Origin: Bacteroidales bacterium
Lineage (GTDB): Bacteria; Bacteroidota; Bacteroidia; Bacteroidales; UBA932
Assembly (NCBI GenBank): GCA_017429765.1
Contig: JAFROJ010000062.1
Location: forward strand, 1-38,832
Direction of reading: 5' to 3'
DNA length: 38,832 nt
The position numbers and the translations under genes were made by a program. Below the pieces are notes generated by a model, which worked only from the letters and a program-made list of their open reading frames with translations, was not told where the DNA came from and did no database searches. Below are positions 1 through 38,041 of this stretch, piece by piece. Numbering within the stretch: the stretch's first letter is position 1; the number at the start of each line of letters is the position of its first letter.

Positions 1-3
1 AAC

Positions 4-6727: not shown

Positions 6728-6841
6728 GATTCTTCGCTCCGCTCAGAATGACAGTTCTGAAATGTTTGTATGACAGCCCTGAAATGGTAGTGTGATAGCT
6801 CGGTATGTTGTCATTCTGAAGGAACGAAGTGACTGAAGGAT
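6728..6841 (+). repeat. Intergenic repeat element: inverted arms around three 22-bp degenerate tandem units
   Basis: The left arm at 6728-6753 reads inward to AGAATGACA. The right arm starts TGTCATTCTGA at 6809-6819 and runs to about 6841, so the two arms are inverted copies of one motif, exact near the inner ends and diverged outside. Between and partly overlapping the arms are three 22-base direct units at 6748-6769, 6770-6791 and 6792-6813. The first two share ATGACAG..CTGAAATG and the third is more diverged (GTGATAG). From memory, TCATTCTGAG-type arms recur between genes in many Bacteroidales genomes. No gene is seen in this spacer. Confidence 0.7.
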
Positions 6842-6843
6842 TT

Positions 6844-6874
6844 GGGGCGAAGCCACTGCGGCTTCGCCCCTTTT
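6844..6874 (+). terminator. Rho-independent terminator closing the susC-susD-beta-helix unit
   Basis: A perfect 11-base-pair GC-rich stem, GGGGCGAAGCC at 6844-6854 and its complement at 6860-6870, encloses a five-base ACTGC loop and is followed by TTTT (6871-6874). It lies about 120 bases after the beta-helix gene. It sits directly in front of a promoter, so it separates two transcription units. The short T run makes it moderately strong. Confidence 0.85.
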
Positions 6875-6877
6875 CGT

Positions 6878-6908
6878 TTTGGATTAGGCGGTTCTTTTAT
6901 TATATTTG
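6878..6908 (+). promoter_or_regulatory. Bacteroidota-type promoter for the downstream enzyme genes
   Basis: TTTG at 6878-6881 is followed after 19 bases by TATATTTG at 6901-6908. This fits the Bacteroidota consensus of a -33 TTTG and a -7 TAnnTTTG. Transcription would start near 6914, leaving a leader of only about 14 bases before the ATG at 6928. It supports the chosen start of the next gene and a transcription unit separate from susCD. Confidence 0.7.
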
Positions 6909-6927
6909 TGTACACGTCGGAGCGCCC

Positions 6928-19341: not shown

Positions 19342-20893
19342 GTTCCATCGTTTTATCGCCTTGACGGCCGTCCTCGCGACGGCGTCCTGCAAGTCCCCGG
19401 ACCCGATCCAGAACGGCAATTTCTGGGGAGACACCGGTGACGGCAATTACAGGAATCCTGTCCTCGTGGCCGACTATTCAGATCCCGACGTCATCCGTTC
19501 GGGGAACAAGTTCTACATGGTGGCCTCCGACTTCCATTTCATGGGCATGCAGGTCCTGGAATCGGAGGACCTGGTCAACTGGAAGCTCATAAGCCAGATC
19601 TATTCAAGGTTCGACCAGCCTGGCTGGGACACCATGAACCACTACGCCGGCGGTTCCTGGGCGCCCAGCATCCGGGAGCATAACGGCCGCTACTATGTCT
19701 ATTTCTGCACCCCGGACGAGGGCCTTTTCATGAGTTCCGCCAAGGATCCCGCCGGGCCTTGGGAGCCCTTGCATTGTGTCAAGGCCCTGAGCGGCTGGGA
19801 GGATCCCTGCCCTTTCTGGGATGAGGACGGGACCGCCTATCTCGGCCACAGCCGGGTCGGCGCCGGGCCTATCATCGTCCACAAGATGTCGGAGGACGGC
19901 AAAGAGTTGCTTGACGACGGCGTGACCGTCTATGAGGGCCCGATAGCCGAGGGCACCAAATTCCACAAGATCGGGGGTTACTATTACCTGAGCATCCCCG
20001 AGGGGGGCGTCCAGGGAGGATGGCAGACAATCCTCCGCTCCAAGGACATCTATGGCCCCTACGAGAGCAAGAGGGTTCTCGAGACAGGATCCACTTTCAT
20101 CAACGGCCCTCATCAGGGAGCCATAGTGGACACTCGCCAAGGAGAGTGGTGGTTCCTTCATTTCCGTCACATGGACCCTCTCGGCAGGGTGGTCTACCTC
20201 CAGCCCATGAGATGGGAGGACGGGTGGCCCGTCATGGGCGAGGATTATGACGGCAACGGGGTCGGAGAGCCTGTGGAGAGCTGGAGAAAGCCAAAGACAA
20301 GAAAGAAGATAAACCCTTATCTTCCAGCCTCTTCTGATGATTTCAGCTCGGACAGGCTCGGGCTTCAGTGGCAGTTCAACCACAATCCCGTGGACGAGGC
20401 GTGGTCGCTCTCGAGGCGTCCCGGCTTCCTGGCCATCGACGCCCTCAAGGCGGAATCCTTCGCCAAGGCCCGCAACACATTGTCCCAGAAACTTATGGGG
20501 TTCATGGGCTCTTACACGACCACCCTGGACTGCTCGGCCATGGCCGAGGGACAGTTCGCCGGCCTCGCCTGCATGGGCGGGAAGAACACCTGCTTCGGGG
20601 TCATGGCCACAGCCGAGGGGAAATTCATCTACATGGAAGACGAGGAAGGGTTGAGGACTGTCGCCCCCTTGGAGTCGGACAAGGTCTGGATCAGGCTGAA
20701 ATTCGATTCCAACGTGAACATATTCACCTTCGTCTACAGTACTGACGGGGTTGAGTATCTTCCCTCCGGGGAGCTGTTCATGGCCAAGTTCGGCCATTGG
20801 AAGGGCGCGCGTCCCGCCTTGTTCAGCTATAACACCGAGTCAGACGCCGGAACGGCTTATTTCGACGATTTTATCTATATCCTTGAGAAATGA
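19334..20893 (+). CDS. GH43 family glycoside hydrolase with C-terminal beta-sandwich
   Basis: GH43 enzymes are five-bladed propeller, inverting arabinofuranosidases, xylosidases or galactosidases. This 519-residue lipoprotein (Cys19, TASC) shows the full triad: base D50 in YSDPDVIR, pKa-tuning D157 in WEDPCPFWDEDG, and acid E206 in AEGTKFHKIGGYYYLSIPEGG read in two parts. Residues about 330-519 (SDDFSSDRLGLQWQFNHNP onward) form the beta-sandwich that completes many GH43 active sites. The start at 19334 overlaps the GH99-like gene by eight bases; an in-frame ATG at 19286 would lie far inside that gene and break the leader. The next gene overlaps its stop by ATGA. The subfamily, and so the exact sugar, is not settled; arabinose or xylose is likely. 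Confidence 0.92.
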   Translation: MNRFHRFIALTAVLATASCKSPDPIQNGNFWGDTGDGNYRNPVLVADYSDPDVIRSGNKFYMVASDFHFMGMQVLESEDLVNWKLISQIYSRFDQPGWDTMNHYAGGSWAPSIREHNGRYYVYFCTPDEGLFMSSAKDPAGPWEPLHCVKALSGWEDPCPFWDEDGTAYLGHSRVGAGPIIVHKMSEDGKELLDDGVTVYEGPIAEGTKFHKIGGYYYLSIPEGGVQGGWQTILRSKDIYGPYESKRVLETGSTFINGPHQGAIVDTRQGEWWFLHFRHMDPLGRVVYLQPMRWEDGWPVMGEDYDGNGVGEPVESWRKPKTRKKINPYLPASSDDFSSDRLGLQWQFNHNPVDEAWSLSRRPGFLAIDALKAESFAKARNTLSQKLMGFMGSYTTTLDCSAMAEGQFAGLACMGGKNTCFGVMATAEGKFIYMEDEEGLRTVAPLESDKVWIRLKFDSNVNIFTFVYSTDGVEYLPSGELFMAKFGHWKGARPALFSYNTESDAGTAYFDDFIYILEK

Positions 20894-22827
20894 GAAGAAT
20901 CCTCCGCTTGTCCATTCTACTGGCGCTGCTCTCCGCTTGCGGGAGAAATCCCGTCCCCACATCAGACCTTTGTCCGGGCGGTGTCGACTTGATGAGCGAC
21001 ACCTGGGTCGCGACTGACGGCCTTGGGAGGCAGATGCCCCTGATCGACTCGGTGGGCAAGGTCAAGACCGACCACAGGCGTGTCACGGGAATATTCTACA
21101 TCACCTGGCACGGGAAGGGCAACCACGACCTCCCCGGGCCCTACACCGACGTCACCAAGATCCTTGACGAGGACCCTTCCGCGAGGCTCGACCACCGGAA
21201 CCCCCTTTGGAAATACGGCATGTTCCATTGGGGAGAGCCGGAGATGGGTTATTTCCTGAGCCAGGACGAGTGGGTCATCCGGAAAGACATCTCGATGCTC
21301 CAGGACGCCGGGATCGACGTCCTGGTGATGGATGTCACGAACGGGGTCTGCTACTGGGACGAGTGGGAGATCCTCTTCTCGACCATGATGAAGATGCGGG
21401 AGGAGGGGAACAAGACCCCCCAGTTCGTCTTCTGGTCCTACAACAACAAGCCCGTGGATGTCGTCAAGTCTCTTTACGAGCGTTACTACAAGGCCAACAA
21501 GTTCCCTGAGCTATGGTTCCACTGGGACGGCAAGCCCCTGCTGCTCTACAACGCCAATCCCTCGAAAGACGCCAACGGCACCTACGAGACCACAGCGGCT
21601 GACTATCCTCCCGAGATATTCGAGTTCTTCACCTTGAGGAACATGTGGTGGGGCTTCTATCAGGAAAGGGGAGTCCGGTACATCGGTACCGAGGATTACT
21701 GGAGTTTCGGCTATTCGATGGCCGACACCAACATCATCAATATGCCTCCCGCGGAACTGCTCTCCCTCCATCAGGGGAAGCGTGAGGAGGCAGCCGTCAC
21801 ACCCGCCCAGCACCCGGTGCGCCTGCAGGACAGCCCTGTCCCGATCGGGGTCGGCAAGTCCTGGTCCAGGGCCTTCGGGGAGCCGGAACTTGACGAGCAT
21901 GACATGCCGGTGGAGGCCTACGTGCCCTGGCTTGGCGAGAAGGTCAAGAACCCGGAGGCATACGGGATCTATTTCCAGGAGCGTTGGGATGACGCCATCG
22001 AGGGGGATCCCGAGTTCCTTTACCTTAACGACTGGAACGAGTGGACCGCCGGGATGTGGGCCAGGGGAGGTAAAACCGAGTTCCTGCGCCGACCGGAGAA
22101 CCCCTTCGTGTTCATCGACCAGTACAACGCCGAGTTCAACCGCACGATCCAGCCAATGAAGGGCGGCTACACGGACAACTACTACATGCAGATGGCCGAG
22201 AATATCCGCCGCTACAAGGGTGTCAGGCCGATCCCGGTGAACAAGGGGTTCAAGAAGATAGCCATAGACGGAGTTTTCTCCGACTGGGATAAGGTCAAGG
22301 TGACTTACCGGGACACCAGGGGGGATGTCGCCTTCCGTGACGCCGACGGCTACGCCGGCCTGCATTACACCGATTCCACGGGCAGGAACGACATTCACGA
22401 CGCCAAGGTGGCCCTTACCAGGGACGGGAACGTCTGTTTCTATGTCAAGTGCGGCTCGGCCATCACCCCGAGCTCGGATCCGGACTGGATGCTCCTGCTG
22501 ATCGACGCCGACAAGGATCCCGCGACCGGGTGGCACGGCTATGACTTCCTTGTCAACAAGAAGGTCTTGGACGGGAACACGACCTCCGTCATGGGATATT
22601 CGGACGGGGGCTGGACCCCTGTCGCCGAGGTTCCATATTCAGTCGCCGGGAATGAGATGGAGCTGTCCATCCCCGCCTCGGCGCTGGGGATCGCCGGGGG
22701 GAGCCTGGAGTTTGATTTCAAGTGGGCCGACAACTCCGGCGAGCTGGTGGACCCTATCTCCCTTTGCGTCAGCGGGGACACCGCGCCGAACCGAAGGTTT
22801 AATTACCGATTCATATTCAAGAGATAA
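20890..22827 (+). CDS. GH99/GH71-like lipoprotein with C-terminal CBM9-like domain
   Basis: This 645-residue lipoprotein (Cys17, LSAC) has an N-terminal domain, about residues 45-430, with features of the GH71/GH99-like group: VTGIFYITWHGKGNHDLPGP, ISMLQDAGIDVLVMDVTNGV, FHWDGKPLLLYN and YLNDWNEWTAGMW, where E384 lies in the same WNEW motif as the gene two places upstream. Residues about 450-645 (IAIDGVFSDWDKVKVTY onward, with LIDADKDPATGWHGYDF) resemble a CBM9-like carbohydrate-binding or DOMON-type sandwich. Its reaction is not known to me; an exported hydrolase acting on the same glycan backbone as the smaller GH99-like protein is the best inference. Translation is coupled to GH43 through the ATGA overlap. 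GH95 follows 11 bases later. Confidence 0.75.
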   Translation: MRRILRLSILLALLSACGRNPVPTSDLCPGGVDLMSDTWVATDGLGRQMPLIDSVGKVKTDHRRVTGIFYITWHGKGNHDLPGPYTDVTKILDEDPSARLDHRNPLWKYGMFHWGEPEMGYFLSQDEWVIRKDISMLQDAGIDVLVMDVTNGVCYWDEWEILFSTMMKMREEGNKTPQFVFWSYNNKPVDVVKSLYERYYKANKFPELWFHWDGKPLLLYNANPSKDANGTYETTAADYPPEIFEFFTLRNMWWGFYQERGVRYIGTEDYWSFGYSMADTNIINMPPAELLSLHQGKREEAAVTPAQHPVRLQDSPVPIGVGKSWSRAFGEPELDEHDMPVEAYVPWLGEKVKNPEAYGIYFQERWDDAIEGDPEFLYLNDWNEWTAGMWARGGKTEFLRRPENPFVFIDQYNAEFNRTIQPMKGGYTDNYYMQMAENIRRYKGVRPIPVNKGFKKIAIDGVFSDWDKVKVTYRDTRGDVAFRDADGYAGLHYTDSTGRNDIHDAKVALTRDGNVCFYVKCGSAITPSSDPDWMLLLIDADKDPATGWHGYDFLVNKKVLDGNTTSVMGYSDGGWTPVAEVPYSVAGNEMELSIPASALGIAGGSLEFDFKWADNSGELVDPISLCVSGDTAPNRRFNYRFIFKR

Positions 22828-22838
22828 TCATCAAAGCC

Positions 22839-25211
22839 ATGAGGAGAAAATTATTCATACTATTCGTCCTTGCCTCCCAGATCCTTTGCGGGCAGGACAG
22901 GAAGACCACGCTATGGTACCGCCAACCCGCCAAGGATTGGAACGAGGCCCTGCCGGTGGGTAACGGCAGGATCGGGGCGATGGTCTACGGCAATCCCTGG
23001 AACGAGACCATCCAGCTCAATGAGGAGAGCCTTTGGGCGGGTTCCCCGCAGGACGGCAACACCGAGTCCGCCGCCGTCATGCCGAAGATACAGGAACTCC
23101 TCCTTGAGGGAAAGATCGCCGAGGCTAACGAGATGGCCCAGAAGAACTTGGCGGGCGATCCGATGAGGATCCGCTCCTACCAGACTTTCGGGGAGCTGGA
23201 GATAGACTTCTTCGAGAGAGGTTCTGATGACGCGAAGGGTTTTTATCCGGACGGGATCTCGGCCTATGAGCGTTCCCTGGATTTGATGAGGGGGATAGCC
23301 TCCACATCCTTCACCGCCGGCGGTGTCAGGTTCAGTAGGGAGGTTTTCTCATCGGCTCCGGATAATGTGCTGGTGATCAGACTCCTGGCGGACAAGCCGG
23401 GTGCACTGTCCTTCAAGATGAGTTACTCGAGGCCGGAGAACGCGGCCGTCTATCCCGAGGGCGCCGGGACCCTCGCCGTCTCGGGACAGATCATCGACCT
23501 GCCTGACAAGGGGCAGGGCGAGCCCGGGCCTCACATGAAGTTCGCCGCCAGGATCAAGGCCGCCGCCAAGGGCGGAAGCGTGACCGTCGCCGGCAACTCG
23601 GTTTATGTCAGCGAGGCCGATGAGGTCGTGGTCTATGTCGCCATGAACACGGACTACAATTTCTCCAAGCTCAACTTCGACCGCTCGATTGATCCGGATG
23701 AGCTTTGCCGAAAGCAGGTTAAAGCGGCGGAAGGCGTTGGATATGAGAATCTTAAGATGCGCCACGTCGAGGATCACCAGTCCGTGATGGGGAGGGTCTC
23801 CCTCACTCTCGGTGACCCTTCTATGGCGGATGTCCCCACGGACGAGAGGCTCGCCAAGATGAAGGAAGGCGGGTCCGACCCCGCTCTGGCCGCTCTCTAT
23901 TTCCAGTACGGCCGTTACCTTCTGGCAGGCTCTTCCAGGGCTCCCGGAAGGCTTCCAGCCAATCTTCAGGGAATATGGAACCAGGACATCAACGCCCCCT
24001 GGAACGCCGACTACCACACTAACATCAATATCCAGATGAATTACTGGCCGGCCGAGGTCTGCAACCTGTCCGAGACCGTGATCCCTTTCTCCAACTGGAT
24101 CAACGCCATCCGCGAGCCGGGAAGGGTCACCGCCAGGAAGACTTTCGGCGCCGAGGGTTGGACAGTGAACCATGTCGCCGACCTTTTCGGCCACACCTCG
24201 ATCAGCGACGGCGTGGGTTGGGGAACCTTCCCGATCGCCGGCCCCTGGCTCACGCTGCATCTTTGGGAGCATTACCGCTTCACGGGGGACAAGGAATATC
24301 TCCGGGTCGACGCCTACCCGGCCATGAAAGAGGCCGCCGAGTTCCTGCTCTCGTTCATGATCACCGACAAGAACGGTTATCTGGCGACAGCCCCCTCCAA
24401 CTCTCCCGAGAACGCCTACCGGATGCCGGACGGGAAGTCCTTCAACCTGACCTATTCAGCCACGATGGACATCGAGATAGCCGCCGAGCTTTTCGGGGCT
24501 TGCGTTGAGGCCTGTGACATCCTCGGGGACGATCCCGCGTTCAAGTCCAAGGTCAAGGAGGCCATGGCCAAGCTGCCTCCGATCAAGATCGGGAAGCGTT
24601 ACGACACCATCCAGGAGTGGATAGAGGATTACGAGGAGGTCGAGCCTGGCCATCGCCACATGTCCCATCTTTTCGGCCTGCATCCCGGCACTGTCATCAC
24701 CGACAAGAATCCCGAGCTGTTCGCCGCGGCGAAGCGCACAATCGAGCGCAGGCGCAAGTACAACGAGGATCCCGTCACCCGCCAGGGCTCCTACACCGGA
24801 TGGAGCAGGGCTTGGCTGATCAATTTCTACGCCCGTCTGAGGGACGGGGAGGAGGCCGGCTCGAATGTGAAGGCCCTGCTTTCGAAATCGACCCAGAACA
24901 ACTTGTTCGACACCCATCCGCCGTTCCAGATCGACGGAAACTTCGGCGGGACGGCCGGGATAGCCGAGATGCTTCTCCAGTCCCATTCCGGAGAGATTCA
25001 CCTGCTTCCCGCCCTGCCTTCCTGGTGGAAGGACGGAGAGGTCAAGGGCCTAAGGGCCAGGGGAGGCTACACGGTTGACATCAGTTGGAAGAACGGCGTG
25101 ATCGAGTCCGCCACGATCGTCCCTGATTTCTCCGGGAAACATGTCGTACGCTATGGAGACAAGCGTAAGAAGGTGGCCTTCAAGGCCGGTAAGCCATTTA
25201 TATTCAAATAA
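22839..25211 (+). CDS. GH95 alpha-L-fucosidase or alpha-L-galactosidase
   Basis: GH95 enzymes are inverting exo-enzymes that remove terminal alpha-L-fucose, and some prefer alpha-L-galactose. The 790-residue length is typical. The N-domain starts LWYRQPAKDWNEALPVGNGR and QLNEESLWAGSPQDGN, both standard for the family. Catalytic elements seen are the NIN pair N395/N397 in HTNINIQMNYW, which activates water, the probable acid E524 in NSPENAYRMP, and D699 in FQIDGNFGG. These correspond to N421/N423, E566 and D766 of the bifidobacterial AfcA enzyme as I recall it. The leader (ILCGQDRK) is a signal peptide, but the residue before Cys is Leu, so a lipoprotein fate is doubtful and soluble periplasmic placement is as likely. 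No truncation is visible. Confidence 0.94.
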   Translation: MRRKLFILFVLASQILCGQDRKTTLWYRQPAKDWNEALPVGNGRIGAMVYGNPWNETIQLNEESLWAGSPQDGNTESAAVMPKIQELLLEGKIAEANEMAQKNLAGDPMRIRSYQTFGELEIDFFERGSDDAKGFYPDGISAYERSLDLMRGIASTSFTAGGVRFSREVFSSAPDNVLVIRLLADKPGALSFKMSYSRPENAAVYPEGAGTLAVSGQIIDLPDKGQGEPGPHMKFAARIKAAAKGGSVTVAGNSVYVSEADEVVVYVAMNTDYNFSKLNFDRSIDPDELCRKQVKAAEGVGYENLKMRHVEDHQSVMGRVSLTLGDPSMADVPTDERLAKMKEGGSDPALAALYFQYGRYLLAGSSRAPGRLPANLQGIWNQDINAPWNADYHTNINIQMNYWPAEVCNLSETVIPFSNWINAIREPGRVTARKTFGAEGWTVNHVADLFGHTSISDGVGWGTFPIAGPWLTLHLWEHYRFTGDKEYLRVDAYPAMKEAAEFLLSFMITDKNGYLATAPSNSPENAYRMPDGKSFNLTYSATMDIEIAAELFGACVEACDILGDDPAFKSKVKEAMAKLPPIKIGKRYDTIQEWIEDYEEVEPGHRHMSHLFGLHPGTVITDKNPELFAAAKRTIERRRKYNEDPVTRQGSYTGWSRAWLINFYARLRDGEEAGSNVKALLSKSTQNNLFDTHPPFQIDGNFGGTAGIAEMLLQSHSGEIHLLPALPSWWKDGEVKGLRARGGYTVDISWKNGVIESATIVPDFSGKHVVRYGDKRKKVAFKAGKPFIFK

Positions 25212-25222
25212 TAAGAAAGATC

Positions 25223-28200
25223 ATGAGAAGAACCGTTTTGTTGTTGTCGCTGGCCGTCGCCCTCGCCGCTGTCTCTTGCGGGAAGGCTGAGAAGGGGAGT
25301 GAGGCCGCCTCATTATTCGTCCCCGTCGACGAGGTCATCACCCAGAGCTCGACCCTCACCGCCATGGACGCCGAGCCGGGACTCCCGAACCAGTGGCTCG
25401 CCTTCCGGAAAGATATTGAGATAGAGAAGGTTCCGGAATCGGCTCCGGCCAAGGTGGCCGTGGACAGCAAATATTGGCTGTGGATCAACGGGGAGCTCGC
25501 CGTCTTCGAGGGAGGACTCAAGCGAGGGCCGAATCCCAGGGACTCCTATTTCGACGAGGTGGATCTGGCTCCCTATCTGAGGAAGGGAGAGAACAAGATA
25601 GCCCTCCTTCTCTGCTATTTCGGGAAGGACGGTTTCTCTCATAAGACAAGCGACAAGCCCCAGCTTTGGCTCGACTGCCCGGCTATAGGCTTGAGGAGCG
25701 ACGGGAGCTGGCTTTCCAGGGTGCTTCCGGCTTACGGCACGGCCGACTGTCCCGTACCGAATTACCGCCTGTCCGAGTCCAGCGTCCAGTTCGACGCCAG
25801 GGAGGACATCGGCGACTGGAAGACCGGCGAGCATGACGGCTTCTCACCGGCGGTGGAGGTCGAGAGCACTCTCGGGAACCTCCACAGGCGTCCTATCCCC
25901 ATGTGGAAGGACTATGGGGTCGTCGCCGCCGAGTTCGAGACCCGTCCCGGGGCGGAGCGTGACACCGTCGTGGCCATGCTTCCCCACAACATGCAGATGA
26001 CCCCTGTGATCACCGTGGAGGCGGACAGGGGCGGCCGCCGGATCCTGATCGAGACCGACCACGCCAAGGTGGGGGAGGAGTGCGTCAGGGCCGAGTACAT
26101 CACCAAGGCGGGATCCCAGGAATATGAGTCCTACGGCTGGATGAACGGCCAGAAGATCATCCTGACCGTCGACCACGGGGCCGAGGTGAAAGCCTTGGCG
26201 TACAGGGAGACAGGCTATGACACCACTCCCGACGGGGTCTTCGTCTGCGACGATCCTTTCTTCAACAAGTTCTGGGACAAGGGATTACGGACCATCTATG
26301 TCAACGCCAGGGACAATTTCTTCGACTGTCCCGAACGCGAGAGGGCGCAGTGGTGGGGAGACATCGTCACCATCCTCGGGGAATGTTTCTACACCTATTC
26401 CCCCTCTCTCCACGCCCTCGTGAGGAAGGGCATCCGGGAGCTTTGCGACTGGCAGAGGCCGGATGACATCATCTTCTCCCCGATCCCCGGCAACTACGGG
26501 GTGGAGCTCCCTTGCCAGATGCTTGCCGCTGTCGGGCGCTACGGCTTCTGGACCTATTACATGAACACCGGCGACAAGGAGACTATCGAATATGTCTATC
26601 CGGCCGTCAAGAGGTATCTCGCCACCTACAGGATCGGCCCCGACGGCCTGACCGAGTGGCACAATGGAGACTGGAACTGGGGCGACTGGGGCGACAACAG
26701 GGATATGCGCCTCCTCCAGTCGATGTGGTATGTCCTCGCCCTCCAGTCAGTCTCGGACATGGCCGATCTGCTAGGGCTCAACGACGAGGGAAGCGAGTAC
26801 TGGGGACAGATGACCGCCCTGCGCGACGCTATCAACAAGGTCGCCTGGACAGGCTCTTGCTACCGCCACCCCGATTACAAGGGAGAGACCGACGACAGGG
26901 TCAACGCCCTGGCCGTCCTCGCCGGAATAGCCGGTGAGGACAAGTATGACGCTATCTTCGAGGTGCTTAAGAAGGAGTGGCACGCCAGCCCCTACATGGA
27001 GAAATACGTGATGGAGGCCCTCTTCGCGATAGGCCGCGGGGACTACGCCCTTGAGAGGACCCGCGAGCGTTACGACTTCATAGTCAATCACCCGTACCAC
27101 GACACCCTTTTCGAGAACTGGAATGTCGGGGTGAACGGGGACTGGCACTGCGGTTCCGTCAATCACGCCTGGAGCGGCGGCCCCCTGGCTGTCTTCCCGA
27201 CCAAGATGTTCGGGGTCTATCCGCTTGAGGCCGGCTGGAAGAGATTCTCCGTCTGCCCGGACAAGTTCATATTCGATGACTGCTCCCTCTCTTTCCCGAC
27301 TGTGATCGGCGAGGTGGGTGTGGCCTTCAAACGTTCCGGGGAGAAGTCGACCCTGGAGGTCAAGGTCCCTAAGGGCTCCCAAGCCGATGTCAATGTCCCT
27401 TGGGCGAGTTTCAGCGCCACTCTCGGGCCCGGGGAGCATAAGATCGACCTGGCCGCCGGGCCCCGGATGGTGGCCGGTGATTTCAAGTACCGCGACAAGA
27501 GCCTCCCGGTGGACAAGAGGGTCAAGGACCTTCTGAAGCGAATGTCCGTCGAGGAGAAAGTGAACCAGCTGAGCGCCCAGCTACTGTTCATGAACGAGTA
27601 TTACCAGAAAAGGGACTATGAGAAGGGACATGTCAGGAATATCGGGCATTTCCTCTGGGAGGCCGGCCTCCCCAACGATCCCAAGTCCGCCGCCGAGCGG
27701 ATCAACGAGGACACTGAACGCTCCATCCAGTCAAGCCGTTGGGGTATTCCCGTACTCCAGCACGGAGAGGCGTTGCACGGGGCGCAGTGGGGGAACGCGA
27801 CCTGTTTCCCGCAGAGCATAGGAATGGCCGCCACCTTCGACAATGATCTCTACTACAAGGTCGGCCAGGTGGTGGCGAAGGAACTCAGGGCCGTCGGGGT
27901 CCGCCAGGTCTACGCGCCTGTCGTCAACATCACCCGCGACCAGCGCTGGGGAAGGGGACAGGAGAGCTACGGCGAGGATGTCCTCCTCAACTCGGTGATG
28001 GGTGTCGCCTATGTGAAAGCCTTGGAGGAGGGCGGTGTTGTCGCCACCCCCAAGCATTTCGTGGACAATTACGGCGAGGGAGGACATGACTCTTTCGCCT
28101 CCCCGATGTCGTGGAGAGTCCTCAGGGAGGTTTACCTTGAGCCTTTCAGGGCCTGTGTCCAGGAAGGAGGCGCCAGGGGAATCATGGCCGCCTACAACTC

Positions 28201-29659
28201 TGTCGACGGGATTCCCGCCAGCTGCGACAGCCGTCTGCTGAAGGATATTCTTAAAGACGAGTGGGGCTTCGAGGGAATAGTGGTCTCGGACTACGGCGGG
28301 GTGGACATCGTCAGCAACGGCCACAAGATGGCCGAGACTGTCGACGACGCGCTCGCCATGAGTCTGGAGAACGGCCTTGACTTGCAGCTGGCCAACACCA
28401 GCTCCGGCCTGCTTCAACTGGTCAAGGATGGGAAAATCAGCGGGAAGACCCTGGACGAGAGTGTCCGCAGGGTCCTTAAGATAAAGTTCGAGCTGGGTCT
28501 GTTCGACGAGCCTCTTGTCGATCCGGACAAGGCCGCCGAGGTCGTCCGCTGCCCCGAGCACCGGCAGCTCGCCTATGAGGCGGCCGTCAAGGCCATGACT
28601 CTTCTGAAGAATGACGGCACCCTCCCGTTGAGGCCCGGAACTGTCAAGAGGATAGGGGTTTTCGGCCCGGCCGCGGATATTCTTAACGTGGGAGACTACA
28701 GCGGTGGCCGCGGCGGCTGGAGAGGCGACGGAGTGACCCCGTACGATGGCCTGAAGAAGGCTTTCGAGGGCTCCGCCGAGGTTCTTCTGAATAAGAGCGG
28801 CCAGGATGTGGGCTCTTTGGCGAAGTCTTGCGACGTGCTTCTTTTCTTCCCGACCATCACTGAGGACGAGGGAAGCGACAGGAGCAGTTTCAAGATGCCC
28901 TCCGCCCATGAGAGCCGCTCCAGGGAGGAGACGGACGCCATCATAATCGATGAGGCGAGAGATGTCAAGATAGAGATTGACCAGGAGAGGATGGTCCGCG
29001 ACCTGATCGCCACAGGCAAGCCTGTCATCGTTGTGCTTCACAACGGGGCTGTCATCGACATCACCGACTGGGTGGACGGGGCCGCCGCCGTGCTGGAGGC
29101 ATGGTACTCCGGCGAGCAGGGCGGGACCGCCATCGCCGACGTACTGACCGGCAGGCGATCGCCCGGGGGCCGTCTCCCGATGAGTTGGGCGAAAAGCATC
29201 GGCCAGAACCCTATGTACTATTCCATCAAGCCGAGCGGCCGTGGCTACGGCTATGTCGAGAACGACGGCAAGCCGCTCTTTCCTTTCGGCTACGGGCTCA
29301 GCTACACCACATTCGAATACAATGACTTCCATGTCGAGGAGTCCCTCTCGAAGGACGAGCCGCTGAAGGTCAGCGTGAAGGTCACCAACACCGGCGAGAC
29401 GGAGGGCGACGAGGTGGTGCAGGTCTACATCCACGATGAGTTGGCGACGGTCGCCAGGCCGATGAAGGAGCTGGCGGCTTTCAAGCGTGTTACCCTCGCT
29501 CCAGGCGAGAGCAAGGAGGTTGAGATCGAGGTCCCCTACCGCCGCTTCGCCATGTGGGACAAGGACTTGAGGTTCGGGGTCGAGGAAGGCTGGTTCGAGG
29601 TCTGGCTCGGCAAGAACTCCGAGGAGAAGATTGTCGGCGGAAGGGTTTATGTTAGATAA
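25223..29659 (+). CDS. Fused GH78 alpha-L-rhamnosidase and GH3 beta-glycosidase
   Basis: One uninterrupted 1478-residue lipoprotein (Cys19, AVSC) joins two complete enzymes. Residues about 30-745 are GH78: a beta-sandwich start, then F367-DCPERERAQWWGD380, where D368, E373 and D380 have the spacing of D567/E572/D579 in Bacillus RhaB, then the (alpha/alpha)6 barrel and a C-terminal sandwich ending near AAGPR. Residues about 757-1478 are GH3: VDKRVKDLLKRMSVEEKVNQ, RWGRGQESYGED, KHFVDNYGEGGHD, nucleophile D1023 in VVSDYGGV, a second domain, and an Fn3-like tail (VKVTNTGETEGDEVVQVYI). The two parts are joined by about ten residues with no stop or shift. The pair could release rhamnose and the next beta-linked sugar in turn. 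The GH3 sugar may be glucose, xylose or glucuronic acid. Confidence 0.93.
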   Translation: MRRTVLLLSLAVALAAVSCGKAEKGSEAASLFVPVDEVITQSSTLTAMDAEPGLPNQWLAFRKDIEIEKVPESAPAKVAVDSKYWLWINGELAVFEGGLKRGPNPRDSYFDEVDLAPYLRKGENKIALLLCYFGKDGFSHKTSDKPQLWLDCPAIGLRSDGSWLSRVLPAYGTADCPVPNYRLSESSVQFDAREDIGDWKTGEHDGFSPAVEVESTLGNLHRRPIPMWKDYGVVAAEFETRPGAERDTVVAMLPHNMQMTPVITVEADRGGRRILIETDHAKVGEECVRAEYITKAGSQEYESYGWMNGQKIILTVDHGAEVKALAYRETGYDTTPDGVFVCDDPFFNKFWDKGLRTIYVNARDNFFDCPERERAQWWGDIVTILGECFYTYSPSLHALVRKGIRELCDWQRPDDIIFSPIPGNYGVELPCQMLAAVGRYGFWTYYMNTGDKETIEYVYPAVKRYLATYRIGPDGLTEWHNGDWNWGDWGDNRDMRLLQSMWYVLALQSVSDMADLLGLNDEGSEYWGQMTALRDAINKVAWTGSCYRHPDYKGETDDRVNALAVLAGIAGEDKYDAIFEVLKKEWHASPYMEKYVMEALFAIGRGDYALERTRERYDFIVNHPYHDTLFENWNVGVNGDWHCGSVNHAWSGGPLAVFPTKMFGVYPLEAGWKRFSVCPDKFIFDDCSLSFPTVIGEVGVAFKRSGEKSTLEVKVPKGSQADVNVPWASFSATLGPGEHKIDLAAGPRMVAGDFKYRDKSLPVDKRVKDLLKRMSVEEKVNQLSAQLLFMNEYYQKRDYEKGHVRNIGHFLWEAGLPNDPKSAAERINEDTERSIQSSRWGIPVLQHGEALHGAQWGNATCFPQSIGMAATFDNDLYYKVGQVVAKELRAVGVRQVYAPVVNITRDQRWGRGQESYGEDVLLNSVMGVAYVKALEEGGVVATPKHFVDNYGEGGHDSFASPMSWRVLREVYLEPFRACVQEGGARGIMAAYNSVDGIPASCDSRLLKDILKDEWGFEGIVVSDYGGVDIVSNGHKMAETVDDALAMSLENGLDLQLANTSSGLLQLVKDGKISGKTLDESVRRVLKIKFELGLFDEPLVDPDKAAEVVRCPEHRQLAYEAAVKAMTLLKNDGTLPLRPGTVKRIGVFGPAADILNVGDYSGGRGGWRGDGVTPYDGLKKAFEGSAEVLLNKSGQDVGSLAKSCDVLLFFPTITEDEGSDRSSFKMPSAHESRSREETDAIIIDEARDVKIEIDQERMVRDLIATGKPVIVVLHNGAVIDITDWVDGAAAVLEAWYSGEQGGTAIADVLTGRRSPGGRLPMSWAKSIGQNPMYYSIKPSGRGYGYVENDGKPLFPFGYGLSYTTFEYNDFHVEESLSKDEPLKVSVKVTNTGETEGDEVVQVYIHDELATVARPMKELAAFKRVTLAPGESKEVEIEVPYRRFAMWDKDLRFGVEEGWFEVWLGKNSEEKIVGGRVYVR

Positions 29660-30617: not shown

Positions 30618-33161
30618 ATGAGAAAGTTATCCCTATTCATTTCGGTGCTTTCCGCCGTCATTCTCTCTCTGGCGGAGGCCGCCGCCCAGAAACCGGCTTT
30701 CCGTGACGAGAGCCTTACCATCGCCGAGAGGGTCGAGGATCTACTCGGGAGGATGACAGTCGATGAGAAAATCGACCTCATGAGGGCCACCTCGCCGGCC
30801 AATCCGCGCCTCGGGATCGAGAAATATTACCATGGCAATGAGGCTCTGCACGGGGTGGTGCGCCCGGGAAGGTTCACCGTGTTCCCTCAGGCCATCGGCC
30901 TGGCCTCGACCTGGGATCCTGAGCTTATGCTCAAGGTGGCGACAGCCATCTCCGACGAGGCGAGGGCGAGATGGAACGAGCTCGGGGAGGGCAAGCTCCA
31001 GACCAACCAGTTCAGCGACCTGCTGACTTTCTGGTCCCCGACCGTGAATATGGCCCGTGACCCCCGCTGGGGCAGGACTCCTGAGACCTACGGGGAGGAT
31101 CCCTTCCTCACCGGGGAGATGGGAACCGCTTTCGTGAGGGGCCTGCAAGGCGACGACCCGAGGTATCTCAAGGTGGTCTCGACCCCCAAGCATTTCGCGG
31201 CCAACAATGAGGAGCACAACCGCTTCGAGTGCGACGCCACCATTCCCGAGAAACAGTTGAGGGAATATTACCTGCCGGCCTACGAGGCCATTGTCAAGAG
31301 GGGAGGGGCCGCCTCGATCATGGCCTCCTACAACGCCATCAACGGCATCCCCTCTTCAGCCAACCCCTGGCTTCTGACAAAGGTGCTGAGGGAGGACTGG
31401 GGCTTCAAGGGCTATGTGGTCTCCGACTGCGGGGGGCCTTCCACCCTTGTGGAGGACCATCACTATGTCTCCAGGCGGGAGACCGCGGCGGCTCTCTGCC
31501 TTCTTTCCGGCCTCGACCTCGAGTGCGGCGACAGCTACTACATAGAGCCATTGAAAAAGGCCTATGAGTTGGGGATGGTGAAAGAGGAGGACATCGACAG
31601 GGCCGCCCGCCGTATCCTGACCGCCAGGATGCGCCTCGGGATCTTCGATTCCGGCGAGAATAACCCCTACACGAGAATATCCCCGGAAGTCATCGGGTCG
31701 GAGAAGCATCAGGCCCTGGCTCTCGAGATGGCCAGGGAATCAATGGTTCTCCTGAAGAACCAGAACGGGATGTTACCCCTCAAGAAGGGCAAGGTCCGCT
31801 CAGTGGCCGTGGTCGGGATCAACGCCGCCTCATGCGAGTTCGGGGACTACAGCGGGACTCCCGCCTCGACCCCGGTGTCGATCCTCGAAGGGATAAAGGC
31901 CGTCGCCGGGAAGGACTTCAAGATCAGGTACGCTCCCTGGAGATCCGCCGTTGACGGGATGGAGGTCATAGCCCCGGACTATTACCCGGAAGGCCTTGAG
32001 GCTGAATATTTTGAGGGAACCGAGCTGAAAGGCGAGCCCAGGAGGCGGGTCGACGAGTGGATCAATTTCGAGCCTTCCAACCAGGCTCCCGACCCCTTCG
32101 TCCCGAACTCCCCGATGAGCGTGAGATGGAAGGGTGCCTTGCGTCCTCCCGTGACCGGGGAATATGTCCTGAGCGTCTCCTCAGACGACGGGTGCAGGCT
32201 CTATCTCGACGGGGATCTTCTCATCGACTCCTGGGGGCCGCACAATGTCCAGCCGGACACGGTGGCGGTCAATCTTGAGGCCGGGAAAGACTACCGGCTC
32301 ACCGTGGAGTACCACAACGAGAGGGATTACTCCATTGCCCGTCTCAGCTGGAGACCGCCCAAGGCCGGGGAGAAGGATCGCCTGGCCATGTACGGCCTTG
32401 CCGGGGAGCTGGCCAAGGAGTGCGACGCCGTGATCGCCGTGATGGGAATCAACAGGACCATCGAGAGGGAAGGCAAGGACAGGGATTTCATTACCCTGCC
32501 CGCTGACCAGATGGAATTCCTCCAGGAACTCTACCATGTCAACAAGAACATCGTCCTGGTGCTGGTCGCCGGCAGCCCTCTCTCCATCCTTTGGGAGGAC
32601 AAGAATATTCCCGCCATACTGAACGCCTGGTACCCCGGAGAGAAAGGAGGCACCGCTGTGGCGGAGGCCTTGTTCGGGAAATACAACCCCGCCGGAAGGC
32701 TCCCTGTCACCTACTACAACAGGCTGGAGGACCTGCCCGCGTTCGACGACTACGACATCACCAAGCGTACCTACAAGTATTTCGAGGGGGATGTCCTGTA
32801 TCCATTCGGCCACGGCTTGAGCTACACCGCGTTCCGCTATTCCGGCCTGAAGGTCGAGGACAAGGGGGAGACGCTGGATGTGTCCTTCGTCCTCAAGAAC
32901 ACCGGAAGGCTCGACGGGGATGAGGTGGCCCAGGTCTATGTCCGCCTTCCCGAGTACGAGGGGAAAGCCCCGATCAAGGAGCTGAGGGCTTTCAAGAGGG
33001 TCCATCTCAAGAGAGGGGAGAGCAAGGTCGTGACCATCCCGGTGCGCCGGGAGGACTTGCGCTATTGGAGCGAGTCCGGGAAACGCTTCGTGATCCCCGA
33101 GGGGATACCGGAGATCATGGTCGGAGCCTCATCGGCCGACATTCGTCTCAAGAATAATTGA
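30618..33161 (+). CDS. GH3 beta-glycosidase with an inserted PA14 domain
   Basis: GH3 enzymes are retaining exo-beta-glucosidases, xylosidases or related hydrolases. This 847-residue protein has a signal peptidase I leader (about 1-23, ending EAAAQ), so it is likely soluble in the periplasm. The catalytic barrel contains NPRLGIEKYYHGNEALHG, RDPRWGRTPETYGEDPF, KHFAANNEEHNRFECDAT and nucleophile D270 in VVSDCGG. A PA14 domain (about 455-590, EAEYFEGTELKGEP and SVSSDDGCRLYLDGD) is inserted in the second domain, as in several beta-glucosidases where it shapes the substrate pocket. A long Fn3-like tail follows (LKNTGRLDGDEVAQVYV). It differs from the fused GH3 upstream, which lacks PA14, so the two probably cut different links. 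GH106 follows 16 bases later. Confidence 0.94.
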   Translation: MRKLSLFISVLSAVILSLAEAAAQKPAFRDESLTIAERVEDLLGRMTVDEKIDLMRATSPANPRLGIEKYYHGNEALHGVVRPGRFTVFPQAIGLASTWDPELMLKVATAISDEARARWNELGEGKLQTNQFSDLLTFWSPTVNMARDPRWGRTPETYGEDPFLTGEMGTAFVRGLQGDDPRYLKVVSTPKHFAANNEEHNRFECDATIPEKQLREYYLPAYEAIVKRGGAASIMASYNAINGIPSSANPWLLTKVLREDWGFKGYVVSDCGGPSTLVEDHHYVSRRETAAALCLLSGLDLECGDSYYIEPLKKAYELGMVKEEDIDRAARRILTARMRLGIFDSGENNPYTRISPEVIGSEKHQALALEMARESMVLLKNQNGMLPLKKGKVRSVAVVGINAASCEFGDYSGTPASTPVSILEGIKAVAGKDFKIRYAPWRSAVDGMEVIAPDYYPEGLEAEYFEGTELKGEPRRRVDEWINFEPSNQAPDPFVPNSPMSVRWKGALRPPVTGEYVLSVSSDDGCRLYLDGDLLIDSWGPHNVQPDTVAVNLEAGKDYRLTVEYHNERDYSIARLSWRPPKAGEKDRLAMYGLAGELAKECDAVIAVMGINRTIEREGKDRDFITLPADQMEFLQELYHVNKNIVLVLVAGSPLSILWEDKNIPAILNAWYPGEKGGTAVAEALFGKYNPAGRLPVTYYNRLEDLPAFDDYDITKRTYKYFEGDVLYPFGHGLSYTAFRYSGLKVEDKGETLDVSFVLKNTGRLDGDEVAQVYVRLPEYEGKAPIKELRAFKRVHLKRGESKVVTIPVRREDLRYWSESGKRFVIPEGIPEIMVGASSADIRLKNN

Positions 33162-33177
33162 AACAGAAGGATTTACA

Positions 33178-35625
33178 ATGAATAACATGAAAAGATTCTC
33201 TATCATTACGCTCATCCTTGCCCTGGTTGCCTGCGCTGTCTCTTGCGCCGGCGGCGGTTCCAAGGAGCCCGGCACCGCGGACCTGGCCAAGATGTTCGAA
33301 ACGCCACCGATCCAGTACGGGCCTTATGTCTGGTGGCATTGGATGGGCCCGAACTTCTCCAAGGAGGGAATAAGGAAGGATCTGGAGGCGATGAAGGAGT
33401 CCGGGATAGCCGGAGCCACCATATTCAACCTGACCTCGGCCGTTCAGGAGTCGGAGGCCCCGATCGGGAACAACCCGTGGCCTGACCAGACCTACAGGAG
33501 CGAGAAATACTGGGAGGCGATAGAGTACGCCGCCGAGGTCGCGCAGGAGCTTGGTCTCAAGATTGGACTCCACAACTCGCCTGGCTACAGCACGACAGGC
33601 GGCCCTTGGATCGACGAGGACAAGGGGATGCGGACGGTGGTTTTCAGCAAGACCGCGCTGACCAGCCTGGGGGGCGAGGTCCAGAGAATAGAGCTGCCTG
33701 TCCCCGAGCTTCCGTCCTTCTCTTTCTATTCCGACTTTGTCGCCAAAGCCACCAAGTTCGAGGACATAGCCGTGATAGCGCTCCCGGCCATGCCTGGCGC
33801 CTCCAAGGATGACGTCGTGGACTTGACCGGGAAGATGAACGGGTCGGGAGTCCTTGAATGGGACGCGCCGGCCGGGAAATGGACGGTCTACCGCATAGGC
33901 CACGCCTGCACCATGGCTTTCCCTCACCCGGTCCCCGAGGAGTTGATAGGGAAGGTCTTCGAGGCTGACAAGATGAGCGCGGAGATCTCCGCCTTCCACT
34001 GGGACAATGTCCTGGGCCCGTTGAGGGAGCATGTCGGGAAATATTTCGGGAAGTCTTTCACTCACATATTGATAGACAGTTATGAGGCCGGAGACCAGAA
34101 CTGGACCGAGGGCTTCCGCGAGGAGTTCGCCAAGGCCCACGACTACGACCCCGTCCCGATGTTCGCCCTCAAGGACGCCTTCCCCGAGGACGAGGCCGTC
34201 AAGGCTTTCGACGAGGATATGAAGGCCACTGTCAGCAGGATGTTCATCGACGATGGTTTCAAGGTGGCGAGGGACAAGATCCACGCCGAGGGGCTCCAGC
34301 TCTTCTGGGAGCCGTACTGGGGGCCGTTCGACACGGCCGAGTCGGTCTCCATCCCCGACCTGCCGATGGGAGAGTTCTGGACTCACAGCGACGGCAGGAT
34401 CAGCGCCACGATAGTGGACAAGGCGAAGGAATATGGCAAGAATCTGGTCGGGGCCGAGGCTTTCACCGGCTGGCCTGACAACAGCCGCTTCACCGAGGAT
34501 CCTGAGTATCTCAAACGCTCCGCCGACGGGACCTTTGTCTCGGGGGCCAACCTCCTCTTCCTGCACCATTGGGTCCATCAGCCTTTCGACGACAGGTACC
34601 AGCCCGGGATGGGCATGGGATGGTGGGGAACCCATTTCGGACGCAACCAGACCTGGTTCAAGCCCGGCAAGGCCTTCTTCGAGTACCTCACCCGTTGCCA
34701 GATGATGCTCCAGCAGGGAACTCTCGAGGACAGGACGGACGACTGGATCCACAGGAAGACAGCCGAGGCGGATATCTATTTCGTGGTCAACCAGGGCGAG
34801 GAGTCGAGAAAGATCACTCTCTGCCCTTGGGATGAGGATGCCTGCCCTGAGCTTTGGAACCCCTATTCGGGAGCGATCTCTTTCGCCCCTGAGATCTGGA
34901 GGGCGGACTCGGTCAATGTCACCCTCGATCCCGGAGCCTCGATGTTCGTGGTCCTGAACCACCTGGGCAAGGAGGGCGTTAAGGCCAAAGCGAAGGACAA
35001 GTACGGCAAGTCTCCCCAGTACATCGGCACGACCAAGGTCGTCAAGCCGCTCGGCGATGCCTGGGATGTCGACCTGGTACCGAAAGTGGACGAGCCCTTC
35101 TCTCTCAAGTCGTTCACTCTGATGGATTTCAGCCAGTGCGCTGACGACAGGCTGAAGTATTTCGCCGGCACCGCCACCTACACCACCAAGGCGATCCTTG
35201 ACGAGGACGACCTCGGGGAGGGGAAGCGTGTTGTCATCAATCTCGGAGAGGTTGACGACATCGCCGAGCTGGAGATAAACGGGCAAAAGGTCGGGGTCTT
35301 CTGGTATCCTCCACACACCGCCGACGTCACCAGGTTCCTCAAAGTCGGGGAGAACGTCATCACCGTCGCCGTCACTAACAATTGGGCAAACAGGCTGATA
35401 GGTGACGAGCGTCTCGAGGCCGACTTCGATTGGGGTATTGACCGAGGCGAGATGAGGGGAAGGGCCATGAAGGCTTTCCCCGACTGGTTCCTCAAGGATG
35501 AGCCTCGCCCCTCCGGAAGAAAGGCTTTCGTGATCTGGTCCTATTACAGGGGAGACTTCGAGCTCCAGCCCGCCGGCCTTGTCGGCCCGGTCTACCTGGT
35601 GGTCTACAATCTCTATAACCCTTGA
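33178..35625 (+). CDS. GH106 alpha-L-rhamnosidase family protein
   Basis: GH106 holds calcium-dependent, inverting alpha-L-rhamnosidases such as BT0986, which acts on rhamnogalacturonan-II. This 815-residue lipoprotein has Cys23 (AVSC), with Cys19 as an alternative. Family marks are YGPYVWWHWMGPNFSKEGIR, KESGIAGATIFNLTSA, ILIDSYEAGDQNWTEGF (E303), LFWEPYWGPFD and WTHSDGRIS. The C-terminal part has a beta-sandwich with ELEINGQKVGVFWYPPHTAD. It is shorter than BT0986 (about 1100 residues), lacking some accessory sandwich domains rather than core motifs. The first ATG at 33178 is used; an in-frame ATG at 33187 gives almost the same leader. Together with two GH78 domains it indicates several rhamnose linkages in the substrate. 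Confidence 0.86.
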   Translation: MNNMKRFSIITLILALVACAVSCAGGGSKEPGTADLAKMFETPPIQYGPYVWWHWMGPNFSKEGIRKDLEAMKESGIAGATIFNLTSAVQESEAPIGNNPWPDQTYRSEKYWEAIEYAAEVAQELGLKIGLHNSPGYSTTGGPWIDEDKGMRTVVFSKTALTSLGGEVQRIELPVPELPSFSFYSDFVAKATKFEDIAVIALPAMPGASKDDVVDLTGKMNGSGVLEWDAPAGKWTVYRIGHACTMAFPHPVPEELIGKVFEADKMSAEISAFHWDNVLGPLREHVGKYFGKSFTHILIDSYEAGDQNWTEGFREEFAKAHDYDPVPMFALKDAFPEDEAVKAFDEDMKATVSRMFIDDGFKVARDKIHAEGLQLFWEPYWGPFDTAESVSIPDLPMGEFWTHSDGRISATIVDKAKEYGKNLVGAEAFTGWPDNSRFTEDPEYLKRSADGTFVSGANLLFLHHWVHQPFDDRYQPGMGMGWWGTHFGRNQTWFKPGKAFFEYLTRCQMMLQQGTLEDRTDDWIHRKTAEADIYFVVNQGEESRKITLCPWDEDACPELWNPYSGAISFAPEIWRADSVNVTLDPGASMFVVLNHLGKEGVKAKAKDKYGKSPQYIGTTKVVKPLGDAWDVDLVPKVDEPFSLKSFTLMDFSQCADDRLKYFAGTATYTTKAILDEDDLGEGKRVVINLGEVDDIAELEINGQKVGVFWYPPHTADVTRFLKVGENVITVAVTNNWANRLIGDERLEADFDWGIDRGEMRGRAMKAFPDWFLKDEPRPSGRKAFVIWSYYRGDFELQPAGLVGPVYLVVYNLYNP

Positions 35626-36313: not shown

Positions 36314-38041
36314 ATGAGAAAATTTTTTGGCACCATCGCGGCCGTCGCCGCCATGTCCGTTCTGCCTTCCTGCGGGGGAGGAGAGAAAACGGCTCCCGCC
36401 GGGACCGGTATAGTCCCGGAGTTCGCCACCGAATACCTCACCCCGACAAGGATCGTCCTTTCTGAAGGGGAGGTCCACAAGGCTGAGCATCTCCTGAAGC
36501 CGTTCTCGGGCCAGGTCTCCACTTCCGAGCCTGAGGTGACAGTGTTCTCCAAGGGAGGCTCGGTGCTCCTCGACTTCGACAAGGAGATCCAGGGCGGCAT
36601 CCAGATCGTCCGCTCGTTAGTCGGTGACAAGGCTCCCGCGAGGTTCCGCCTTTGCCTTGGAGAGTCTGTGAGCGAGGCTCTCAGCGATGTCCGGGAGCCC
36701 GGGACGACAGCCACCAACGACCACGCTGTCAGGGACTTGGAGATCTCTGTCCCTTGGCTGGGAGCGGCCGAGTACGGCAACAGCGGATTCCGTTTCGCCC
36801 GCCTGGATTATCTCGGTGACGATCCCGTGGCGGCCATCGTGGCGATCCGCGCGGTCTCCAAATACAGGAATATCCCTTATCTCGGATCTTTCAAGAGCAG
36901 CGACGAGCGTCTGAACGAGATCTGGCGGACCGGCGCCTACACCGTCCATCTCAACATGCAGGAATATGTGTGGGACGGCGTCAAGCGCGACCGTCTGGTC
37001 TGGATCGGTGACATGCACCCCGAGGTCATGGCCATCGGCACTGTCTTCGGCGACCAGCAGGTGGTCCGCAAGAGCCTGGACTATGTCAAGGAAGGCACAC
37101 CGGTGAACGTCTGGATGAACGGGATATGCTCTTACACCCTCTGGTGGATCATTATCCAGCATCATCTCTACCAGTGGTACGGCGACCTCGACTATCTGAA
37201 GGATCAGGCCGAGTACCTGAACGCCCTTCTCGACCACGTGATCTCGAGTCTCGACGGCAGCAAGGAGGCCTACAAGGAGGGCCGCTTCATCGACTGGCCC
37301 TCTAACGACCAGCCTGATGTCATCCACGCCGGCCTCCAGGCCCTGTCCGTCCGCGCCCTTGAGGCCGGCGCCGACATGGCCGGCTGGCTCAATGACGAGC
37401 CCCTGCGGGAGAAATGCGCGAATGCCGCCGGGGAGCTCAGGAAATATGTCCCGGACAATGTGGGCAACAGCCAGGCCGCCGCTTTGCTGGCCATCGAGGA
37501 CATGCTCGACGCCGAGGAGGCCTCGAGGATCATCCTCGCCAACGGGCCGGAGAAGTTCACCTCCTTCATGGGCTATTACCTGCTCGAGGCTCTGGCCAAG
37601 GGCGGTCACTACACCGAGGCGATGGACCTGATCTCCAAGTACTGGGGCAAGATGCTTGACCTTGGCGCCACGACCTTCTGGGAGGACTTCAACTATGTCG
37701 ACGCCCAGAACGCCGCCCGAATAGACGAGGTGGTTCCCGAGGGCAAGTTCGACATCCACGCCGACGGCGGCGCCTGGTGCTATGTCGGCCTCCGTCACAG
37801 CTTCTGCCACGGCTGGGCCTCCGGACCCACGACTTGGCTGAGCCGTCATGTCCTTGGGATCGAGCCGGTCGGCGTCGGTTTCAAGCAGGTCCGCGTCGAG
37901 CCCCATCTGGGTGACCTCGAGTGGGTCGAGGGAACCTTCCCCACACCTTACGGTGTCATCAAGGTCAGCCACAAGAAGGGCGCTGACGGGAAAGTCTCCT
38001 CTGACATCACCCTCCCCAAGGGAGTCAAACTTGTGAAATAG
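36314..38041 (+). CDS. Short GH78-like alpha-L-rhamnosidase family lipoprotein
   Basis: This 575-residue lipoprotein (Cys20, LPSC, then GGGEK) belongs to the six-hairpin barrel group of GH78. It has a small N-terminal sandwich, then YVWDGVKRDRLVWIGDMHPE (D221, D226, D233) and the barrel with WMNGICSYTLWWI and TTFWEDFNYVDAQN, ending in a short sandwich (VRVEPHLGDLEWVEGTFPT). It is much shorter than full GH78 enzymes of 900 or more residues, since the N-terminal carbohydrate-binding sandwiches are absent. Compared with the fused GH78 upstream, the position equal to E373 is Asp226, so the acid role may be changed; this variant seems to be typical of its subgroup rather than a defect. It is probably periplasmic, acting on small rhamnosides. 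Confidence 0.8.
   Translation: MRKFFGTIAAVAAMSVLPSCGGGEKTAPAGTGIVPEFATEYLTPTRIVLSEGEVHKAEHLLKPFSGQVSTSEPEVTVFSKGGSVLLDFDKEIQGGIQIVRSLVGDKAPARFRLCLGESVSEALSDVREPGTTATNDHAVRDLEISVPWLGAAEYGNSGFRFARLDYLGDDPVAAIVAIRAVSKYRNIPYLGSFKSSDERLNEIWRTGAYTVHLNMQEYVWDGVKRDRLVWIGDMHPEVMAIGTVFGDQQVVRKSLDYVKEGTPVNVWMNGICSYTLWWIIIQHHLYQWYGDLDYLKDQAEYLNALLDHVISSLDGSKEAYKEGRFIDWPSNDQPDVIHAGLQALSVRALEAGADMAGWLNDEPLREKCANAAGELRKYVPDNVGNSQAAALLAIEDMLDAEEASRIILANGPEKFTSFMGYYLLEALAKGGHYTEAMDLISKYWGKMLDLGATTFWEDFNYVDAQNAARIDEVVPEGKFDIHADGGAWCYVGLRHSFCHGWASGPTTWLSRHVLGIEPVGVGFKQVRVEPHLGDLEWVEGTFPTPYGVIKVSHKKGADGKVSSDITLPKGVKLVK

Follow-up and report, generated by a model that had tools for sequence, protein, structure and literature searches.

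The window, a 38,832-nucleotide stretch of Bacteroidales DNA, encodes a protein in which a GH78 module, predicted to be an alpha-L-rhamnosidase, is followed in the same chain by a GH3 module, and the same join was found in 28 other distinct sequences. GH78-GH3 is a new pairing of enzymes, although multicatalytic enzymes of polysaccharide utilization loci (PULs) are as such already known. We read the protein as a probably lipid-anchored two-enzyme exoglycosidase of a PUL that would remove rhamnose and then a pentose, the two sites cooperating by closeness. This is our preferred reading, and its chance of being right is a little under even.

The earlier note had described a single chain of 1478 codons with GH78 and GH3 halves. 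This description held. The frame is uninterrupted on the + strand, GH78 comes first and GH3 (PF00933, PF01915 and the Fn3-like domain) second, and the family models for both halves were passed in the Pfam search. Domain calls were judged against each model's own cut-off, and all five domains scored above it. The features of the gene are as follows.

25223-29659, + strand: GH78-GH3 fusion gene, 1478 aa (open frame and Pfam)
25223-25279, + strand: lipoprotein signal ending in AVSC, with Cys19 (by motif)
26234-27196, + strand: GH78 catalytic domain PF17389, residues 338-658, with D368, E373, D380 and E631 (Pfam, 104.2 bits, cut-off 24.5; alignment to 2okx)
27212-27400, + strand: GH78 C-terminal domain PF17390, residues 664-726 (Pfam, 37.6 bits, cut-off 22.1)
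27446-27487, + strand: join, residues about 742-755, with G752 (alignment of fused sequences)
27548-28480, + strand: GH3 N domain PF00933, residues 776-1086, with E849 and the nucleophile D1023 (Pfam, 221.4 bits, cut-off 27; alignment)
28595-29305, + strand: GH3 C domain PF01915, residues 1125-1361, with the proposed acid/base E1216 (Pfam, 156 bits, cut-off 31; alignment)
29411-29620, + strand: Fn3-like domain PF14310, residues 1397-1466 (Pfam, 80.7 bits, cut-off 25)

A strict lipobox pattern was found in 24/28 fused rows that have their N-terminus, and the remaining four have LSC or AEC. The fusion protein is therefore probably lipid-anchored at the membrane, judging by this motif.

Alignment to stand-alone relatives puts the end of the GH78 part near residues 741-745 and the start of the GH3 part near 755. 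The short join, which had been expected near 749-757, thus lies at residues about 742-755. It is similar in all fused sequences, and G752 within it is invariant (29/29). The window is itself a whole contig, one of 75 in its draft genome, and the fusion could in principle be an assembly join or a lost stop codon, a concern raised earlier for positions 27450-27520. The same join recurs in 28 other distinct sequences from 26 other public metagenome assemblies, with two copies in each of two assemblies. An assembly artefact was ruled out on this ground, and we regard the probability of this alternative as negligible. The count of 28 comes from 113 loci in total, among which 32 frames have both halves; two of these are the window's own and two are duplicates. 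A scan of genome contigs kept 77 loci. At E <= 1e-5, Pfam found PF17389, PF17390 and PF00933 in 29/29 fused sequences, PF01915 in 28/29 and the Fn3-like domain in 27/29; three of the 29 are cut by contig ends, L062 and L063 inside GH3 and L056 inside GH78. One further locus, L049:2-3452, is a second copy of the fused type in which GH78 and GH3 are out of frame with each other, either broken or misassembled, and it adjoins an intact fused copy.

The GH78 half aligns with rhamnosidase B (2okx, which we take to be BsRhaB) at E 1.8e-24, residues 291-726 with 487-942 and 54-168 with 19-134. The DCPSYEQVFWVGD motif of 2okx lines up with D368, E373 and D380, and the GH78 base position, E631, lies opposite 2okx around residue 841 as read off the alignment by eye. 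Catalytic roles are assigned here from those of the aligned 2okx residues. Both proteins share these four positions (D, E, D and E), which are invariant in 29/29 distinct fused sequences. The earlier note had placed D368, E373 and D380 correctly, as well as D1023 of GH3, but it had overlooked the base E631. 2okx differs in being GH78 only, without GH3. The usual N-terminal rhamnosidase domain was not found in the fusion protein by Pfam. The NCBIfam alpha-L-rhamnosidase equivalog NF041572, a model of one specific subfamily and not of the whole family, gave 27.4 of the 1800 bits of its cut-off. Family membership and the catalytic residues predict that the GH78 module is an alpha-L-rhamnosidase.

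Among the GH78-only relatives listed from the genus (43-46% identity), 11 are interrupted within the matching stretch by one in-frame stop or two. The stop is TAG in 8 of those 11 (e.g. G142:C211, G200:C230 and G191:C3); decay, errors or recoding are all possible.

In the GH3 half, the nucleophile position D1023 is invariant (29/29). E1216 is present in 27/29 sequences, with gaps in the two whose contigs stop short of it, and its conservation makes it the likely acid/base. The substrate is less easily read. No NCBIfam equivalog cut-off was reached. The highest bit score was obtained with the beta-xylosidase/alpha-L-arabinosidase model NF052329 (506.3 of 1050 bits), whereas the BglX beta-glucosidase PRK15098 (455.2 of 666 bits) came nearer to its own cut-off. 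The two best PDB matches were the xylosidases 7zb3 and 8c7f, followed by EmGH1 and several beta-glucosidases. In both 7zb3 (a beta-xylosidase) and 8c7f, positions 4-415 align with residues 756-1159 of the fusion and the C-terminal part aligns too, and both have in common with it the His-x-Glu motif and the nucleophile region. They differ in that there is no rhamnosidase in the chain, and the part in the middle that holds the acid/base is left unaligned; 8c7f carries Asn in place of the nucleophile, as expected of a mutant.

Within the His-x-Glu motif, E849 is present in 31/31 fused rows, two of which are duplicates, but it is not exclusive to them, as the more distant GH3 rows have 29 Glu, 14 Asp and 6 gaps. 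EmGH1 (5z87) likewise has Glu at this position, and 5xxl, which we take to be a beta-glucosidase of B. thetaiotaomicron, has Asp. Residue 847 is His in 28/31 fused rows and Asn in 3, and 7zb3 also has His here. PMC8913315 describes, in two fungal GH3 beta-xylosidases, a Glu that contacts O4 of xylose and a Trp next to C5, the latter in the place of His847 in the fusion. By motif alignment, E849 would correspond to the O4-contacting Glu. Taken together, the GH3 half appears somewhat closer to beta-xylosidase/alpha-L-arabinosidase than to beta-glucosidase; a pentose is the better guess for its substrate and glucose is possible.

Glucose would make the protein a single-chain naringinase, GH78 plus a GH3 beta-glucosidase acting on plant rhamnosyl-glucosides. 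Naringinase is an activity pair, a rhamnosidase and then a beta-glucosidase. The preferred reading resembles it in that a rhamnosidase is followed by a second exoglycosidase, and the difference is that this second activity is a beta-glucosidase in naringinase. The paired activities, the BglX score and the many beta-glucosidases among the PDB matches of the GH3 half all speak for a naringinase. Considering that the two best solved chains are xylosidases, that E849 stands where 5xxl has Asp and that the locus is of a complex-glycan kind, we consider it quite improbable. A sequence of the type Rha-alpha-X-beta-Y, which the earlier note had proposed for the glycan, is possible, with X slightly likelier to be a pentose than glucose; the order of action that it implies is one that we infer.

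The surroundings of the gene were annotated in the same way. The genes needed for the argument are these.

1-3159, + strand: SusC-like, the frame reaching the window's start
3180-4883, + strand: SusD-like
22839-25211, + strand: GH95, directly upstream of the fusion (Pfam)
30618-33161, + strand: stand-alone GH3 with a PA14 insert (Pfam)
33178-35625, + strand: GH106 alpha-L-rhamnosidase (Pfam)
36314-38041, + strand: second GH78, PF17389 and PF17390 (Pfam)

A SusC/SusD-like pair with clustered CAZyme genes identifies the window as a PUL. Above the Pfam cut-offs it holds a SusC plug, SusD, GH127 domains, two GH92, a metallophosphatase, WbsX, GH43, GH95, the fusion, a metallo-hydrolase, GH3 with PA14, GH106, DUF2490, the second GH78 and the start of a GH2. 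Weak matches below the cut-off were a beta-helix protein (4914-6725), a carboxypeptidase-regulatory-like protein (16272-18146) and a GH99-like protein (20890-22827). GH106, GH95 and GH127 bring to mind rhamnogalacturonan-II loci; the two GH92 do not fit such a locus. The match of the GH127 protein at 6829-8109 (426 aa) to the catalytic model (376 positions) is limited to positions 294-342, the N-terminal part of the protein being short or divergent. An AAA ATPase gene (PF01637, 8202-9332) is unusual company within a sugar-degrading locus.

Relatives of the window's genes were counted in the 28 fused loci, which vary in length, and some of these relatives fall below 40% identity. GH43 was found in 16 loci, GH106 and WbsX in 15 each, PA14-type GH3 in 14, GH95 in 10, GH127 in 7 and SusC/SusD in 1. 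Two loci, L042 and L057, have no neighbour matching any other gene of the window.

The history of the two halves was examined with separate trees. Neither includes the window's own loci, L011, or L008 and L009, which duplicate L044 and L046; the GH78 tree also lacks L056, the L049 fragment (both short) and rows below 800 bits, and the GH3 tree lacks L062 (short) and rows below 600 bits. In the GH78 tree a single clade of 31 rows (99/99) takes in all 28 fused rows together with L010, L084 and L077; L077 stops at a contig end, so its fused or unfused state cannot be called. The join is common to all, while 15 of the stand-alone GH3 genes, compared at their starts, mostly open with a signal-like stretch of their own, as judged by eye. 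Since the GH78 halves form one clade and share the join, one fusion event is the simplest reading, though there may have been two separate fusions.

The GH3 halves behaved differently. Their grouping as one clade was rejected (p-AU 3.64e-89; 28 fused rows vs 18). At L064:7995-12434, for example, the GH3 half groups with stand-alone GH3 genes (100/99) and the GH78 half with the other fused ones, and synonymous divergence between L064 and L041 is 2.15 in GH3 vs 0.87 in GH78. The GH3 half has thus been exchanged with stand-alone GH3 genes in some lineages. The half can apparently also be lost. At L010:3600-3858 the GH78 part runs into the opening codons of GH3 and from these straight into its closing codons, with no GH3 left by Pfam, and in L040, the nearest relative of L010, the edges of the deletion share GGCCGCA. 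It seems that the GH3 module of L010 dropped out in frame, through a deletion between these short repeats. On the same contig (G033:C7), about 11 kb off, there is a stand-alone GH3. L084, whose tail resembles the join, has perhaps lost its GH3 half as well, a weaker sign than that of L010.

Exchange and loss bear directly on how the two sites could work together. The earlier note had suggested that the product is passed from one site to the other inside the protein. This is unsupported. The GH3 half has been exchanged with stand-alone genes and is deleted in one genome, which argues against an obligatory internal transfer, and with a stand-alone GH3 about 11 kb from the L010 deletion, covalent tethering is not essential. 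The stricter version of ordered action, in which a single chain strips a rhamnosyl-pentose cap off a complex glycan in two ordered steps through kinetically coupled GH78 and GH3 sites across the 14-residue join, is in our view doubtful.

The same observations suit an explanation without any sequential step, in which each module works on its own end or side chain of one glycan and the fusion fixes only their co-expression and localisation. Besides the exchanges and the L010 loss, the GH106, second GH78 and second GH3 of the window could do either step. What tells against this explanation is found among unfused genes. At L066:6933-11825 and L117:1880-6817 a GH78 ends 12 and 15 bases, respectively, before a stand-alone GH3 of the fused type, hinting at linked substrates. 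This hint is weakened by the 12 stand-alone GH3 loci L065-L076, where a GH78 relative lies in the fetched stretch in 5/12 and none in 7/12. The GH78 of L066 and L117 also carries the usual N-terminal rhamnosidase domain, a domain make-up unlike that of the fusion. We consider action at separate places possible but on the unlikely side.

The distribution of the fusion was determined in three sweeps. In the window's genus, fused frames were found in 26/400 genomes, its own counted, comprising 23 with full-length frames (25 copies) and 3 cut short. In an order-wide draw the fused frame was found in 0/392 other genomes (393 with the window's own), the other matches being GH78 only. Both sweeps scored the best two candidates per genome at E <= 1e-150, so extra copies may be missed. 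In a phylum sweep with PF17389 (395 genomes, best five candidates each) the matches listed reach E about 1e-29, and three frames among them have at least 1300 aa (1665, 1333 and 1312 aa). Read from the first start codon, these three contain no domain other than GH78, which one of them carries twice. The fusion may occur elsewhere in the phylum, because the matches listed do not include even the fused gene of the window. At L114:2009-6976 (G503), one 1655-aa frame has two GH78 catalytic stretches.

A fusion in so few genomes of the genus, whose GH3 half has gone from L010 and perhaps also from L084, could be a neutral one, tolerated with no gain. Selection was estimated from dN/dS for the 78 possible pairs among 13 sequences other than the window's gene, and for a single pair that includes that gene. 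In the 23 of these 79 computed pairs whose GH78-half dS was below 1.5, the ratio was 0.042-0.170 in the GH78 half and 0.049-0.144 in the GH3 half. Both halves are under purifying selection. Against the low ratios, the single clade in the GH78 tree and the invariant catalytic residues, a neutral fusion is unlikely.

Cooperation by closeness is favoured over the other readings, at the strength given at the outset. The domains and catalytic residues are kept in the 29 fused sequences wherever the contig reaches, both halves have low dN/dS, a lipobox is present, the bit scores and solved chains put the GH3 half first with xylosidases, the locus is rich in exoglycosidases (GH127, two GH92, GH43, GH95, GH3, GH106 and the second GH78), and GH78 stands directly upstream of a stand-alone GH3 of the fused type in L066 and L117. 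Evidence against it comes from the GH3 half, namely the better standing of BglX relative to its cut-off, His847 in place of Trp and the non-exclusive E849, and from the exchange and deletion of that half and the missing neighbours of L042 and L057. In the proposed mechanism the GH78 site, which belongs to an inverting family, would take off a terminal alpha-L-rhamnose, after which the GH3 site, of a retaining family, would take off the exposed pentose, beta-xylose or alpha-L-arabinose, of the same branched glycan. The short tether would keep the two activities side by side at the membrane and at a ratio of 1:1, and cooperation would come through closeness, with no closed channel.

The earlier note had not recognised the fusion as a standard architecture, and no GH78-GH3 fusion was found in our literature search, which covered few subscription journals. 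Other Bacteroidota PUL proteins likewise have more than one catalytic domain, with other enzyme pairs. Examples are a multicatalytic CE15-GH8 enzyme (PMC8417218) and fused acetyl-feruloyl esterases (PMC7110780).

Sample-named titles (forestomach, abomasum or rumen) were found for 10/28 fused loci and isolate numbers for the other 18. Several of the isolate-number prefixes (RUG, RUI) presumably denote rumen collections. The sequences point to a fusion that is kept in related ruminant-gut bacteria. For the question of why bacteria that degrade polysaccharides fuse their exoglycosidases, close relatives offer a natural experiment. The pair occurs there fused, unfused, with GH3 exchanged and with GH3 deleted, and the benefit of tethering is directly measurable. 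If the GH3 half is a pentosidase, a motif of pentose capped with rhamnose is to be expected in a glycan that these gut Bacteroidales use.
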